Below are positions 29,178-35,422 of a DNA stretch of 36,789 nt, one piece after another (position 1 is the first letter of the stretch; every line of letters starts with the position of its first letter). Origin of the DNA: Terriglobia bacterium (lineage in GTDB: Bacteria; Acidobacteriota; Terriglobia; Terriglobales; Acidobacteriaceae); the NCBI GenBank assembly GCA_032252755.1, contig JAVUPY010000094.1:89181-125969 (forward strand), in the 5' to 3' direction. The notes beneath the pieces were generated by a model. That model ran no database searches. It was not told the origin of the DNA and worked only from the letters and a program-made list of their open reading frames with translations. Position numbers and translations under genes: made by a program.

Positions 29178-29711
29178 TTAGAACTTCAACACGACACCGG
29201 CGGAATAACGGAAATTCTTGAAGTTGGTGCCTTCGAACCGTGTGCCGAGATAGTCGAACTGGCCGATACGGATGGCGAAGTTGCTGGACGCATTCACGTC
29301 AAGTCCGCCGCCAAAAGCATAGGAGAAGCCATTGCTAGTGGCGCTTCCGAAGCCGGTTTCAGTGAAACTGGCGTGTCCGCCACCAAACAGGGCATGCACG
29401 AACGGGGTCGCCCTATCCATGGGGACGCGAAGCGTCGGACCAAACATGTAGGTGTAAACCTTGGTGTCGACGCCAGAGATGGACTTGTAGGCGCCGGAGA
29501 AGTCGGCGGTAATGCCGAAGTTGTTATTGAAATAGCCGCTCACGGCAGCGTTCCAGCCGTTGAAGCTCTGACGGCCAATGCCGGAGCCCAGGTCGTCAAT
29601 GTTGGTGTACTGATAACCGCCGAACACTTCGGCCTTGTTGGTGTTGTCCTGGGCGACTGCGAACAGGCAGGATGCCAGAATGACCATGACCACTACAGTA
29701 ATCTTGCGCAA
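29178..29711 (-). CDS. Small outer-membrane beta-barrel protein
   Basis: The 177-residue protein has a signal peptide (about 1-20, LRKITVVVMVILASCLFAVAQ) and an OmpA/OmpW-like barrel of alternating strands: AEVFGGYQYTNID at the start, FNGWNAAVSGYFNNNFGI and YMFGPTLRVP in the middle, and a final strand ending YSAGVVLKF with C-terminal Phe. The start is probably TTG at 29711, because GGAGG lies eight bases upstream and the signal peptide begins there; the in-frame ATG at 29798 would add 29 residues that do not look like a signal peptide. It is divergent from the small regulator at 29915. Function unknown; probably structural or an uptake/adhesion barrel. Confidence 0.78.
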   Translation of the reverse strand: MRKITVVVMVILASCLFAVAQDNTNKAEVFGGYQYTNIDDLGSGIGRQSFNGWNAAVSGYFNNNFGITADFSGAYKSISGVDTKVYTYMFGPTLRVPMDRATPFVHALFGGGHASFTETGFGSATSNGFSYAFGGGLDVNASSNFAIRIGQFDYLGTRFEGTNFKNFRYSAGVVLKF

Positions 29712-29832
29712 CTTAATTGCCTCCAAATATGAAGCAAAGATTCGGCAACACGAATGTGCCGTCAATGAAATCATGCGTCCAGTAAGGGTTTCCGTCAAAG
29801 CACGGACGGGTACTCACCTTGGTGCTCGGGAA

Positions 29833-29847
29833 TATTACGGAGTAATA
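29833..29847. promoter_or_regulatory. Small palindrome in the divergent promoter region
   Basis: TATTAC (29833-29838) and GTAATA (29842-29847) are perfect arms around GGA, between the barrel gene and the regulator gene. It could be an operator for either. Evidence is the symmetry alone. Confidence 0.3.
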
Positions 29848-29868
29848 AACCCTCGATTTTTCTTCGAC

Positions 29869-29898
29869 TTGAAAAGTACCTAGGTACATAGGTACACT
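29869..29898 (+). promoter_or_regulatory. Promoter and AGGTAC operator-like repeats of the regulator gene
   Basis: TTGAAA (29869-29874) and TACACT (29893-29898) form a plausible -35/-10 pair with an 18-base spacer. Within the spacer lie the perfect palindrome GTACCTAGGTAC (29876-29887) and a further AGGTAC (29890-29895). The gene that follows encodes a ribbon-helix-helix-like protein, so autorepression through these repeats is likely but inferred. Confidence 0.55.
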
Positions 29899-29914
29899 AA
29901 ATGTGAGGAAGGAC

Positions 29915-30187
29915 ATGATCGAAATCGAGCGGGTACAGACGGGGGTTCGGCTGGAAAAGCGGCTGCTCAAGGTGCTGAAGGCGCTGGCGGAGCTGAAGGA
30001 TCTTACGCTGGGCGACCTGCTGGAGGGCATCGTGTTGCACGCCTTTGAAGGGAAGGCACCGTTCTCGAGACCAACGCTGGGGCAGATTGCGGAGCTGAAG
30101 CGGATTTACGGACTCGAGTTGCGCGCGAGCGACAGCCATCACCTGAAGGAGAGCAATACCCACCATTCGAAGGAGACGGCGGAATGA
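29915..30187 (+). CDS. Small ribbon-helix-helix-like DNA-binding protein
   Basis: The 90-residue protein has a short strand followed by two helices (VQTGVRLEKRLLKVLKALAE, then LTLGDLLEGIVLHAF), which fits a CopG/Arc-type ribbon-helix-helix fold at residues 8-45. The C-terminal part, after a Pro (GKAPFSRPTLGQIAELKRIYGLEL), is charged and ends in a His/Ser-rich tail. ATG at 29915 is chosen because AGGAAGG lies just upstream; a GTG at 29903 is less likely. Its TGA overlaps the next ATG, so it is co-translated with the membrane protein at 30184. Palindromic repeats in front of it suggest autoregulation. An antitoxin role is possible, but the partner does not look like a toxin. Confidence 0.6.
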   Translation: MIEIERVQTGVRLEKRLLKVLKALAELKDLTLGDLLEGIVLHAFEGKAPFSRPTLGQIAELKRIYGLELRASDSHHLKESNTHHSKETAE

Positions 30188-30759
30188 AAGGTGCAGGCGG
30201 GTTTGCGTTAGGACTGTTTGTCGGTGTGGCCGCGATCGTGGTGCCGAGGGTGGCGGGGATCGACGTTGTGGCTCACTTTCACCAGCACTTCGCCAGGCGG
30301 TCGGAGGATCCGATTGAACATACGGAGGCGAAGTTCGAGTTCGTCGCAAACGGTCCGATGGAAAAGGTTGCGCCGCTGATGGGCGCAGACCGCGAGCGGG
30401 TGTGGGCGCCGGGATGGAATCCACATTTTGTTTTTCCCAACCCGACGGCCGACCAAGAGGGGATGGTCTTTACCGTCGCGCACGGACCGTATCGGGTGCC
30501 ATGGGTGAACACGGAGTTCGATCTCAAAGCCGGGCGGGTGCAATACGTTTACGTGATTCCCGACACCCTGGTCACGGTGATCACGATCCGTTTGACGCCC
30601 GAGGGAGAGAAGACGAACGTTGCGGTGGAGTACGACCGGACGGCACTGAGCGCAGGCGCCAATAAGCATGTCCGGCAACTGGCGGAACACGATCGCGGCT
30701 GGGGACCGGAATGGCAAGAGCAGATCAATGCGTGGCTGGTGCGAGAAGGTTCCAGGTAA
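30184..30759 (+). CDS. SRPBCC-like domain protein with N-terminal membrane helix
   Basis: The 191-residue protein has an N-terminal membrane anchor (about 4-26, GGFALGLFVGVAAIVVPRVAG). A domain resembling the SRPBCC/polyketide-cyclase-like hydrophobic-pocket fold follows: AKFEFVANGPMEKVAPLM, then ERVWAPGWNPHFVFP, GMVFTVAHG, YVYVIPDTLVTVITIRLT, and a long C-terminal helix. Members of this superfamily bind lipids or other hydrophobic ligands. The start ATG overlaps the stop of the upstream regulator (ATGA), so the pair is co-translated, suggesting that the ligand-binding protein and the regulator work in one circuit. The ligand is unknown, and the family assignment is from motif likeness. Confidence 0.62.
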   Translation: MKGAGGFALGLFVGVAAIVVPRVAGIDVVAHFHQHFARRSEDPIEHTEAKFEFVANGPMEKVAPLMGADRERVWAPGWNPHFVFPNPTADQEGMVFTVAHGPYRVPWVNTEFDLKAGRVQYVYVIPDTLVTVITIRLTPEGEKTNVAVEYDRTALSAGANKHVRQLAEHDRGWGPEWQEQINAWLVREGSR

Positions 30760-30867: not shown

Positions 30868-32856
30868 ATGATCGCGTTTCGACGTGTGTCTCACGTTGTG
30901 GCCGGGATGCTTCTGTTGTTGTTCGTGCTCGCCGGCATGACCTCCGCGCAAGATCGGCCGACTCCGCCGCCGTTCGACGTAAAGGCGCACTACACGAAAT
31001 ATGAGTTCCGCATTCCCATGCGCGACGGCAAAAGGCTGTTTACTTCCGTTTATGTGCCGAAGGATACCTCGCACCCGTATCCGTTCCTGATGACACGTAC
31101 GCCGTACACGGTCGGTCCTTACGGCGAGGACAACTACCGGACGCGTCTCGGCCCGTCGGAGTCGTTCGACCGCGCCGGATACATCTTCGTGTTTCAAGAC
31201 GTTCGCGGGCGCTACATGTCGGAAGGTACGTTCATGGAGATGCGGCCACACATCGACCATCCGCAAACGAACCAGGATGTGGATGAGAGCACCGACACGT
31301 ATGACACGGTCGAGTGGCTGCTGAAGAACATTCCGAACAACAACGGCAAGGTCGGGATCTGGGGGATTTCGTATCCGGGATTCTTCACCTCGGCGAGCAT
31401 TATCGACTCACACCCGGCGATCAAGGCGGCCTCGCCCGAGGCTCCCATGACCGACCTGTTCTTCACCGACGACGGATACCACGGCGGAGCATTCCAGGTC
31501 GCGGCAAATTTCGGCTTCTACAGCGGGTTCAAGCCGCGCGATTCTGTAGCGTGCAGCACGCGGCCTTGCACCGGTACCGGTGGTGAGCCGCAACTTCCGC
31601 CGAAAGCAGGTGCGTTTCAGCCCTACGAGTACGGCACCAACGATGGCTACGCTTTCTTCCTGAAGTATCTGCCGACCTCGAAATTGAAACCGCTGATCAA
31701 CAACTGGCTCTTCAACGACCAGATGGACCACAACACCTACGACGCCTACTGGCAGGCGCGCGACCTCTCGCGGCACATGCACGGCGTCAAGTGCGCGGTG
31801 CTGGTCGTCGGCGGATGGTTCGACGCCGAAGACCTCAGCGGGCCATTCAAGACCTTCCACGCGATCGAGCAGCAAAGCCCGAATGCCTGGAGCGGGCTGG
31901 TCGTCGGGCCATGGGTACATGGCGGTTGGGCGTACATCCAGGGAGCGAGCCTTGGGCGCGTGCAATTCGATTCCGCGACCGGCGAATTCTGGCGCGAGCA
32001 CATCGTGTTCCCGTTCTTCGAGCAGTATTTGAAGGGCAACGTCGATGCCAAGCTGCCTAAAGCGTACATGTTCGAGACCGGGACCAACGTCTGGCGCAAG
32101 TACGACGAATGGCCGCCGAAAAACGCTGCGAAGAAGACACTGTACCTGCACGCGAACGGCAAATTGTCGTTCGATCGGCCCACGGAGAAGCAGTCGTTCG
32201 ACGAGTACGTGAGCGATCCGCTGCGTCCGGTGCCGTTCATTCCTTATACCGACCTGGGGCGGACGGAACAGGAATACATGGTGGCTGACCAGCGCACGTA
32301 CGCGCGGCGTCCGGACGTGCTGGTGTACGAGAGCGATCCGCTGGAAGAAGACGTGACCTTTGCGGGGCCGGTTTCGCCGCACCTGTTCGTATCCACCAGC
32401 GGAACCGATTCGGACTACGTGGTGAAGCTGATCGACGTTTTTCCGACGGACTACCCGGAGCCGGGGCAGCCAGCAGCCGGGCAGCATCCGCAGGAAAGGC
32501 AGCACCTCACCGACGTTCCAGTGCCCACGGAGAAAATGGGCGGCTACGAAATGCTGGTGCGAGGCGAACCGATGCGTGCCAAGTTCCGCAACAGCTGGGA
32601 GCATCCGGAGCCGATGAAACCGGGCAAGGTTGAGGCCGTGAACTTCGACATGCCCGACATCAATCACACGTTCCGGCGCGGGCACCGCATCATGATCCAG
32701 GTGCAAAGCTCGTGGTTCCCGCTGGCCGACGTCAATCCGCAGACCTTCACCGATATCCCCAACGCCAAGTTGTCGGATTTCAAGAAGGCCACGGAACGCG
32801 TGTATCACGACCAGGCAAGTCCATCCGGGGTGGTGGTGGGGGTTCTCGAGAAGTGA
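30868..32856 (+). CDS. Secreted CocE/NonD-family serine hydrolase (X-Pro dipeptidyl-peptidase-like)
   Basis: The 662-residue protein has a signal peptide (about 1-27, ending TSAQ). An alpha/beta-hydrolase domain follows: YEFRIPMRDGKRLFTSVYVPKD, QDVRGRYMSEG, the nucleophile Ser168 in GISYPG, Asp319 in GGWFDAED, and His351 in PWVHGGW, a complete catalytic triad. A C-terminal jelly-roll domain comes next (about 480-660). Family members cleave acyl-ester or amide bonds, as in cocaine esterase, alpha-amino-acid ester hydrolase and X-Pro dipeptidyl-peptidase. AAGGA precedes ATG at 30868. Signal peptide plus triad suggest an active periplasmic or extracellular enzyme; the natural substrate is not known. 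Confidence 0.88.
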   Translation: MIAFRRVSHVVAGMLLLLFVLAGMTSAQDRPTPPPFDVKAHYTKYEFRIPMRDGKRLFTSVYVPKDTSHPYPFLMTRTPYTVGPYGEDNYRTRLGPSESFDRAGYIFVFQDVRGRYMSEGTFMEMRPHIDHPQTNQDVDESTDTYDTVEWLLKNIPNNNGKVGIWGISYPGFFTSASIIDSHPAIKAASPEAPMTDLFFTDDGYHGGAFQVAANFGFYSGFKPRDSVACSTRPCTGTGGEPQLPPKAGAFQPYEYGTNDGYAFFLKYLPTSKLKPLINNWLFNDQMDHNTYDAYWQARDLSRHMHGVKCAVLVVGGWFDAEDLSGPFKTFHAIEQQSPNAWSGLVVGPWVHGGWAYIQGASLGRVQFDSATGEFWREHIVFPFFEQYLKGNVDAKLPKAYMFETGTNVWRKYDEWPPKNAAKKTLYLHANGKLSFDRPTEKQSFDEYVSDPLRPVPFIPYTDLGRTEQEYMVADQRTYARRPDVLVYESDPLEEDVTFAGPVSPHLFVSTSGTDSDYVVKLIDVFPTDYPEPGQPAAGQHPQERQHLTDVPVPTEKMGGYEMLVRGEPMRAKFRNSWEHPEPMKPGKVEAVNFDMPDINHTFRRGHRIMIQVQSSWFPLADVNPQTFTDIPNAKLSDFKKATERVYHDQASPSGVVVGVLEK

Positions 32857-33943: not shown

Positions 33944-35230
33944 TCAGTTGCCGCTAAATACTGCACCATGTGGCACGGCCGCTCCTGTTCCGCCATGCGG
34001 CCAGCGTTCTCTGGCAAATCGAATGCCAGCTTCGGCACCAGACTGGGCGTCATGAAAGTGGGAATCTATGGTGAGTTCGCCTTTGTCGCCAATGTTGATG
34101 ATCACCACCTGGTTCTGCAGGTTTTCAAAGCCAGTAAGCACGACGCGCTTACCGGTGGAGTCTACAGAAAGCCAATGCGGATAGTCCTGAGGACCCAGAT
34201 CCACCCTCCCGACCTCCACTGGCTTTGCCGGATCGCAGACGTCGAGCGCTACCACCGCATGAGACTCCTTGCCTTCCTGTGGTCCCATGGAATGACCGGC
34301 ATCGCCGCCCCCTCCCAGGTTGATCAGCGGCATTTGCGGTTTGCCGTGGCTTAATGTCTCGATCCAAAAATGTCCGGCGACCGCAGGAACCCCGCAAGCT
34401 GTGCCGACGCCGGCGTCATAGACCAGTTCAACTGATGGGTTATCGCTTCCGAGCCCCACGATGCGATAGAGGCCGCAGTTTTCCGCTTCGACCAGCACCG
34501 TTTTGCCATCCTGCAAGACACGTGGTTCCGCTGCGCTCGTTCCGTCGACTCTACCCGGTCCTATCGGCAGCCGGATGGTCTTGATGCGCTTCAGGTCCGA
34601 TAATCGCCACACCTGCAATACGTGACTTGTACCGGCGCCATACATGTCGGTGCTCGACGTCACCACCCGGTCGAGCGCAGGGACCACCGCCAGGCTGTAA
34701 GGACGGATAAAACTGTCAACCGCCGGATCAGCAGCGTCACTGTAACGCACTAGCTTGCCGTTGCCGTCTAATTCGACCAGCGCTCCCGGCATTTTATTCA
34801 TAAATCCTTTCATCTGGTAGGTTGCCAGTACGTGACCGTTCGCGAGATGAGCAAATGAGTGGGGATGTGAATAAGGTCCGGCATTGCCGAAAATTCCTAA
34901 CAGCTTAGGCGCAAGCGGATTGTGCAGATCGAAGCGGAACGTCAGGCCGGACGAATAATCATTGGCAAATAGAATTCCTCCCGCCGGCATTTCGTAATCG
35001 GTGTGGTGCGCAAGGTTCACCGGAACGCCGGTCGAGACGCTGCTAAGCACCTTGCCATATGTTGGGGAAGAAGGCGAAGCATCCACGACCGCGAGAAAAT
35101 CCGGCTGGCTTGTGTCTGCGGACCTCGCCCAGACGTACAAGTATCGGCTTGGTTGCGGAACGGTTTGCGCGAGAGCGGCCACGAGCGACACAAACAACAG
35201 GGTTATCAGAAGTCCTTTACGAGCGAACAT
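33944..35230 (-). CDS. Exported selenium-binding-protein / methanethiol-oxidase-like beta-propeller
   Basis: The 428-residue protein has a signal peptide (about 1-21, FARKGLLITLLFVSLVAALAQ). A seven-bladed propeller follows, with the conserved elements of the SBP56 family: YLYVWARSADTSQPDFLAVVD, VLSSVSTGVPVNLAHHTDYEMP, GPYSHPHSF, SFIRPYSLAVVP, and histidines in PHWLSVD and WPHG near the C-terminus. Bacterial relatives include methanethiol oxidase, but the metal and substrate here are unknown. ATG at 35230 is chosen because AAAGG lies five bases upstream and the signal peptide starts there; an earlier in-frame start at 35281 is less likely. It is divergent from the kinase gene. Confidence 0.8.
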   Translation of the reverse strand: MFARKGLLITLLFVSLVAALAQTVPQPSRYLYVWARSADTSQPDFLAVVDASPSSPTYGKVLSSVSTGVPVNLAHHTDYEMPAGGILFANDYSSGLTFRFDLHNPLAPKLLGIFGNAGPYSHPHSFAHLANGHVLATYQMKGFMNKMPGALVELDGNGKLVRYSDAADPAVDSFIRPYSLAVVPALDRVVTSSTDMYGAGTSHVLQVWRLSDLKRIKTIRLPIGPGRVDGTSAAEPRVLQDGKTVLVEAENCGLYRIVGLGSDNPSVELVYDAGVGTACGVPAVAGHFWIETLSHGKPQMPLINLGGGGDAGHSMGPQEGKESHAVVALDVCDPAKPVEVGRVDLGPQDYPHWLSVDSTGKRVVLTGFENLQNQVVIINIGDKGELTIDSHFHDAQSGAEAGIRFARERWPHGGTGAAVPHGAVFSGN

Positions 35231-35422
35231 GATTGCCTTTCTCACCATAGCGGATGGCTCACGCAATCGGCTAAGAACCAATTTGTACGGACGGAAAGTG
35301 TAACATTACGATTACTCTCTCCACTGGATCGCACCCACTCGAGGTCCGGGGTTGGCACGTTTTGGCTCATCGCGGCGTTCTCTTTTGGAGTAGAATCCGT
35401 CCACTCTTTCCGGGAGTGGGGA

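Follow-up and report, generated by a model that had tools for sequence, protein, structure and literature searches.

A compact two-gene unit, in which a small regulator is followed by a protein with a ligand pocket, was found in a stretch of 36,789 nucleotides from a Terriglobia bacterium (GenBank assembly GCA_032252755.1, contig JAVUPY010000094.1, positions 89,181 to 125,969), which we refer to as the window. We consider it probable that this unit is locally autoregulated, with a ribbon-helix-helix (RHH) repressor acting on three tandem boxes ahead of its own gene and with repression being relieved by a small molecule. In the most likely reading, the regulator would act locally as a dedicated repressor of its own operon, through an 8-bp operator of MetJ-like design, and thereby control a small ligand-binding or detoxifying protein. 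The arrangement links a regulator of the RHH type with a protein of the START type. The features of the locus are collected in Table 1.

Table 1. Features of the RHH-START locus and its surroundings, in coordinates of the window.
Feature	Position	Strand	Remarks
Small outer-membrane beta-barrel gene	29178-29717	minus	divergent; Pfam OMP_b-brl, E 4.5e-10
Possible sigma-70 promoter	29869-29898	plus	TTGAAA-18-TACACT, 9/12 letters; overlaps boxes; tentative
Operator-like array	29874-29897	plus	three tandem 8-bp boxes AAGTACCT AGGTACAT AGGTACAC
Alternative RHH start	29903	plus	in-frame GTG; would give 94 aa
RHH regulator gene	29915-30187	plus	90 aa
Codons for RVQTGVR, presumed DNA-reading strand	29930-29950	plus	residues 6-12
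SRPBCC/START-fold partner gene	30184-30759	plus	191 aa
Hydrophobic N-terminal segment of partner	30196-30258	plus	about residues 5-25; low model confidence
SRPBCC/START domain	30310-30756	plus	residues 43-191; structural matches
CocE/NonD family hydrolase	30868-32856	same strand as pair	TIGR00976, E 1.7e-81
SBP56 selenium-binding-protein-like match	33944-35281	minus	weak, below cut-off, E 3.4e-6

The open reading frames agree with the original prediction of a 90-residue protein whose stop codon (TGA, 30185-30187) overlaps the ATG of its partner at position 30184, and the proposed arrangement of both genes in one operon is supported. The alternative GTG is closer to the boxes than the annotated start, as is the case in many homologues. 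The array of boxes, with the consensus TGGTACCA and a GTAC core every 8 bp, contains the palindrome GTACCTAGGTAC (29876-29887) followed by another AGGTAC (29890-29895); both had been predicted to lie between plausible -35 and -10 elements and were located there, flanked by TTGAAA (29869-29874) and TACACT (29893-29898). Both repeats were thus present as described, although the array proved to be one box larger, comprising three boxes. The two hexamers constitute the only sigma-70-like match on the plus strand between 29600 and 31000, a region that holds two such matches on both strands compared to 0.5 expected from shuffled sequences. Across 77 loci, the hexamers yield 7.75 matches compared to 7.44-7.52 in controls with wrong spacing and, because they barely exceed these controls, the promoter assignment is tentative and the hexamers were rejected as a common feature of the loci.

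The 90-residue protein is predicted to adopt an RHH fold. Its model, with a mean pLDDT of 89.6, aligns with residues 5-46 to CopG (2cpg_C; Z 4.9, 1.1 Å over 42 residues), followed among the structural matches by StnY, Arc, PutA and several antitoxins and including MatP and CdbA, and the CopG/Arc-like succession of a strand and two helices that characterizes the RHH superfamily extends over residues 4-48. The structure prediction thereby agrees with the DNA-binding fold that had been proposed for this protein. Foldseek alone provided no significant match for the model (best E 2.1, unrelated), which we attribute to the small size of the domain. On the level of sequence, the protein scores 19.3 bits with the RHH_4 profile (PF13467), below the curated cut-off of 25, and the same profile is matched by 74 of 76 relatives at E <= 0.1, with a best value of 8.3e-6. 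In RHH proteins generally, the strand reads the DNA, and by analogy the RVQTGVR segment presumably does so here. Its residues R6, Q8, T9, G10 and R12 are identical in all 76 rows of an alignment drawn from 81 loci, from which L056, L060, L066, L068 and the fusion L116 were dropped. Identical in all rows are also H42, F50 and H75, with Y65 and E79 being shared by 75 of the 76. Following the RHH domain, the model contains two further helices (52-65 and 71-76), which are mostly predicted with high confidence. Conservation extends to about residue 79, and only the last ten residues seem disordered.

The partner, which in the window finds no family match by sequence, is predicted to be an SRPBCC protein of the Bet v 1/START type (SRP in the following). 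The region starting with residue 43 is modelled well; from residue 41 onwards, each block of ten residues has a pLDDT of 83-99. The SRPBCC-like fold that had been suggested for the second protein was recovered in the structure prediction, with a best Foldseek E of 2.9e-7 for Bet v 1/START/SRPBCC proteins, Z-scores of 13.6-15.0 among the 50 matches listed, including Bet v 1, PYL and the TcmN aromatase/cyclase, and a helix-grip fold that covers the whole domain as expected for the SRPBCC/START superfamily. The Polyketide_cyc2 profile (PF10604) is unmatched by the protein of the window and found in 7 of 44 aligned relatives at E <= 0.1 (best 8.7e-7), with the AHSA1 profile being matched by a single one of the 44. 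This alignment comprises 44 of 48 SRP loci after removal of L042 with its long frame, L074 at the end of a contig and L080 and L109 with broken frames. In the latter two, both from Mesorhizobium, and in L042, the SRP match is spread over two frames, due to either decay or sequencing error.

The hydrophobic segment at the N-terminus of the partner may act as export signal or membrane anchor and, as judged from the aligned relatives, it does not appear to be kept throughout the family. A crude hydropathy test places a hydrophobic stretch near the N-terminus of 27 of the 44 SRP relatives, a rough count that includes one stretch inside the domain (L040) and misses some signal-like N-termini. Some of these segments resemble cleavable export signals, and the partners from Mesorhizobium, Afifella and a few other sources begin directly with the domain. 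Of the membrane-anchored ligand-pocket protein that was originally envisaged, the SRPBCC fold and the hydrophobic N-terminus thus stand, whereas this N-terminus is missing or export-like in many relatives. The same observations bear on the idea that a hydrophobic ligand, bound by a membrane-anchored partner, would be passed to the regulator or sensed through it. SRPBCC proteins often bind hydrophobic ligands, and the N-terminus found in the window and the presence among the fold matches of CoxG, which combines the SRPBCC fold with a lipid-anchoring end, would both suit such a circuit. However, the boxes remain unchanged where the N-terminus is missing or export-like, and a second partner family, introduced below as FHH, replaces SRP behind the same boxes. 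We also know of no route by which a periplasmic domain would reach a cytosolic RHH protein. The proposed feedback of a membrane-bound ligand on the regulator thus lacks support, and we regard it as very unlikely compared to autorepression with relief by a small molecule.

The pairing of regulator and partner extends far beyond the window. A GTDB-based scan identified at least 562 public genome stretches with a relative of the RHH protein, and the window combined with the best 80 of these provided 81 loci, which are related sequences chosen by their likeness to the RHH protein and not independent trials. Within this set, a partner gene directly follows the RHH gene in 65 of the 81 loci, which is SRP in 48 and FHH in 17, with the ATGA overlap being found in 41 of the 48 and 12 of the 17 cases, respectively. 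The remaining 16 loci, which contain neither partner in this position, include two with FHH upstream of the regulator (L078, L094), one with SRP upstream (L118), one with FHH on the opposite strand (L115), a fusion of RHH and FHH (L116), a locus with a DoxX-like frame (L083) and one that ends shortly after the RHH gene (L044).

A similar picture emerges in a sample that was not chosen by partner. RHH matches were identified in 55 of 399 genomes of the same class, always one per genome, with 47 of them being close and 8 distant, and in 9 of 61 genomes of a smaller set that includes the genome of origin. In the 47 genomes with a close match, to which the analysis of adjacency was confined by omission of the 8 distant places, a partner is found near the RHH gene in 39, with SRP encoded up to 1.5 kb downstream in 24, FHH in 15, both in none and neither in 8. 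In the reverse direction, where all SRP places but one (38 of 39) were covered along with the first 30 for FHH, the RHH gene is located upstream of 24 of the 38 and 15 of the 30, the latter being a lower bound because only these first 30 places were used. If confined to top places, by cuts that were set after the lists had been seen, the numbers amount to 22 of 25 for SRP and 15 of 19 for FHH. Weaker SRPBCC relatives also exist in genomes without an RHH gene, and the wider FHH family is present in 98 of the 399 class genomes, most of which lack a close relative of the RHH gene. The search for conserved co-occurrence that had been suggested as a check on the pair has thus found its partner adjacent in most loci and class genomes, and comparison of these sequences shows the adjacency to be conserved.

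Loci in the phylogenetic tree originate from Acidobacteriota, Pseudomonadota, Myxococcota, Verrucomicrobiota, Planctomycetota and Zixiibacteriota, with many of the rows being metagenome-assembled genomes, where contigs can be misplaced. Relatives in records of named strains include those from Edaphobacter, Terriglobus, Granulicella, Mesorhizobium, Afifella, Steroidobacter and Paraliomyxa, and in the actinomycetote Nonomuraea an RHH gene is accompanied by an SRPBCC frame and a similar upstream sequence. In the tree of 76 RHH proteins, the SRP/FHH label requires three changes, and only 5 of its 72 inner branches carry a star, a poor resolution which renders the tree weak evidence for a co-inheritance of RHH and partner type.

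The 81 neighbourhoods were compared at the level of frames of at least 100 amino acids, which leaves small genes outside the comparison. Four clusters, each with 34-56 of the 81 loci, are the largest and correspond to the RHH/partner position with opposite-strand frames included, and no other cluster of such frames exceeds 8 loci. The divergent outer-membrane barrel gene that had been noted next to the pair does exist but is absent from every cluster of at least four loci; it was therefore rejected as a member of the recurrent unit and looks incidental to the pair. The gene of the CocE/NonD hydrolase starts 108 bp downstream of the pair.

The array of boxes goes together with the regulator gene. 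Within the window, the palindrome pattern with up to one mismatch occurs twice, both times inside the array, which in itself is only mildly unusual since two occurrences are also reached in 4 of 100 shuffles. In the entire genome of origin, the three-box pattern is matched exactly at a single site. When three consecutive 8-mers are scored against TGGTACCA, the array of the window obtains 13.5, a score that all 1,620 control windows drawn from these 81 loci fall short of, and the upstream array exceeds the 99th percentile of these controls (10.5) in 77 of the 81 loci, composed of the window and the best 80 of at least 562. The four exceptions are a locus masked by N (L062), two with the array preceding a partner gene that comes first (L094, L118) and one with the array further upstream (L108). 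In L115, the FHH gene on the other strand carries an array just before its own start. The spacing is equally distinct, with exact pairs of GTAC at a period of 8 in 52 of 81 loci compared to at most one at any other period between 4 and 14, and looser three-base matches at this period in 73 loci compared to at most 6 at others.

On the scale of genomes, the near-exact pattern (one mismatch) was found at 26 sites in 25 of 39 RHH-positive genomes, with 25 of the sites lying 11-32 bases before the RHH match, compared to none for a reversed pattern and none in 39 genomes that are without RHH match in either genome scan. The 39 positive genomes were taken from the 47 described above by omitting G124, G149, G191, G196, G237, G251, G344 and G363, 7 of which have neither partner nearby, an omission that may favour our reading. 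Fourteen of the 39 contain no site at one mismatch, and the array thus varies. The only site away from the locus is found in G393 (L227, about 1500-1519), upstream of a YCII-family frame. A search of the genome of origin for a regulon with up to three mismatches gave 12+9 sites compared to 8+12 for the reversed control, with the exact match being found only at the RHH promoter, and a regulon was thus rejected. By this comparison of sequences, the array is near-exclusive to the RHH locus, and the operator-like repeats accompany the regulator gene as had been anticipated. The restriction to a single local site argues for a circuit that is dedicated instead of global.

From the end of the array onwards, the first in-frame ATG or GTG abuts the last box in 37 of 77 loci, as might be found if the repeats belonged to a leaderless start or were a signal for some other factor and not an operator of the RHH protein. 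This start is, however, 22-27 bases away in 5 of the 77 loci, the arrays also precede partner genes that come first or lie on the other strand, and no array was detected in the 39 RHH-negative genomes, which makes a signal of this kind extremely improbable. The RHH protein might instead be an activator or a DNA-architecture protein akin to MatP and CdbA, as could be suspected from the presence of both among its fold matches. Against such a role, the sites occur at little more than a single place per genome and are located in the start region of the operon, where in 37 of 77 loci box 3 is directly followed by the first in-frame start codon, a placement that suits repression, and we find it highly improbable.

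FHH proteins are defined by the motifs F-x-H-x-x-H, YHETIT and NPDL with three invariant histidines, and their 18 members (17 FHH partners and L116) have no match in NCBIfam and none better than E 0.018 in Pfam. As a guess, they could possibly be small metalloproteins. The idea that FHH is a disguised relative of SRPBCC was rejected, as the comparison of profiles yields a probability of only 0.1 on the percent scale of hhalign. No convincing solved relative was found by sequence for the RHH, SRP or FHH families, and the best match to a solved chain, PLS9-PPR at E 0.0013, was taken for chance. In L116 (1209-1847), RHH and FHH are fused in a single frame of 213 residues. A DoxX-like gene, whose match to DoxX_2 (E 6.5e-5) lies under the cut-off, is placed between regulator and FHH in six genomes and between regulator and SRP in one, counting loci of the same genome once, and at least one of the 8 class genomes with neither partner, G397, has DoxX-like frames in the place of SRP or FHH. 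In the eight distant RHH relatives of the 399 class genomes (E 4e-18 to 4e-15), the RHH-like part belongs to another protein, and in 7 of them it is preceded in frame by a VOC-like domain, which in the single VOC-fused relative scanned matches Glyoxalase at E 2.9e-12. In L009 and L209-L214, it forms the C-terminus of VOC/glyoxalase-like proteins. In these fusions, the strand reads VDVPVR or similar and not VQTGVR, and none of the 7 upstream regions that could be scanned (all except L214) holds a box array, with scores of 8.5-10.0. The joint change of the strand and loss of the array indicate that boxes and reading strand go together.

Several traits of the unit also resemble a type II toxin-antitoxin module, in which an RHH antitoxin would bind an SRPBCC or FHH toxin. 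These include the operon of two genes with RHH first, as in the antitoxin-first order of such systems, the ATGA overlap, the operator-like array and the putative autoregulation, the alternative second genes and their fusion to RHH, and a patchy spread with a close relative in 47 of 399 genomes. The presence on plasmids and phages that is common in type II systems, although not obligatory, is not reflected in our data: a search of 50,697 phage records found nothing, and of 72,556 plasmid records a single one matched, which is a replicon of 11.85 Mb. In addition, RHH matches are found once per genome in 55 of 55 cases, the C-terminal helices of the regulator are confident and conserved, and many SRP partners have export-like N-termini and could thus not meet a cytosolic antitoxin. 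Four proteins tried in PADLOC and PHROGs had no match, and an origin in defence or phages was rejected. Together, we consider a toxin-antitoxin function unlikely and favour the local autorepressor.

In the mechanism that we infer, RHH dimers would bind side by side and cooperatively on the three tandem 8-bp boxes, thereby covering the promoter and start region of their own operon and causing repression. The operon also yields one small ligand-pocket protein, which is SRPBCC in the window and would in other lineages be FHH, sometimes together with a DoxX-like membrane protein. This partner may bind or convert a small and probably hydrophobic molecule, and an inducer, probably the compound that is handled by the partner or its product, would lift the repression. 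A bolder proposal, which we advance tentatively and regard as possible but doubtful, views these loci as cross-phylum cassettes with one site, one vocabulary of boxes and interchangeable SRPBCC, FHH or DoxX-like effectors (with YCII and VOC as outliers), whose RHH protein would sense the ligand via its conserved C-terminal part (H42, F50, Y65, H75, E79) and thus define a new class of ligand-sensing RHH repressors. If the general reading is true, a family of regulators found in at least 562 stretches from several phyla would acquire a defined operator and operon, along with a role as repressor that can be tested. Since partners naturally change while the array stays, these loci would offer a direct way to ask whether RHH repressors of this size themselves sense small molecules, and a three-box operator close to a start codon would make a compact genetic switch.

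That the unit is not a described system, as stated in the original prediction, holds within the open text of PubMed Central, where no description of an RHH-START pair was found among the matches listed. CoxG, which appears among the fold matches (8uds), resembles the partner in its SRPBCC fold and association with the membrane at 16% identity, although in the available description its lipid anchor is found at the C-terminus instead of a hydrophobic segment at the N-terminus, and we know of no RHH partner of CoxG. MetJ dimers sit side by side on met boxes. With MetJ, the regulator shares the RHH fold and the tandem palindromic boxes, which in the met system are 8 bp long (PMC3274233) and here display GTAC pairs at a period of 8 in 52 of 81 loci, but the sequence of the boxes differs, no MetJ family is found among the Pfam matches of the 76 RHH relatives, and the single local site speaks against a regulon such as the methionine regulon that MetJ controls with SAM as corepressor. 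The Omega repressor of the omega-epsilon-zeta system similarly binds as RHH dimers to tandem repeats at its own promoter, which in the accessible part of its description are 7 bp long and are found in a toxin-antitoxin context (PMC4803016), compared to 8 bp here. The nearest described pairs among the matches listed, as far as covered by the available text of PMC2701414, are ArsR-COG3832 (START) and RHH-GNAT, for which resistance was judged more likely than a toxin-antitoxin function. RHH-GNAT pairs equally combine an RHH protein and a small effector in one operon (PMC2701414), but the effector here is not GNAT, and neither a phage copy nor a copy on an ordinary plasmid was found. ArsR-COG3832 (AHSA1/START) pairs share with the described unit a small regulator adjoining a START/SRPBCC protein and a patchy chromosomal spread, with the excerpted account reporting no detection in plasmids or phages and considering resistance the role that is most plausible (PMC2701414). 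They differ in their regulator, which is an ArsR-like HTH protein instead of RHH, and in their expansions (PMC2701414) compared to one match per genome, and in the unit described here one and the same array of boxes is followed either by SRPBCC or by FHH.
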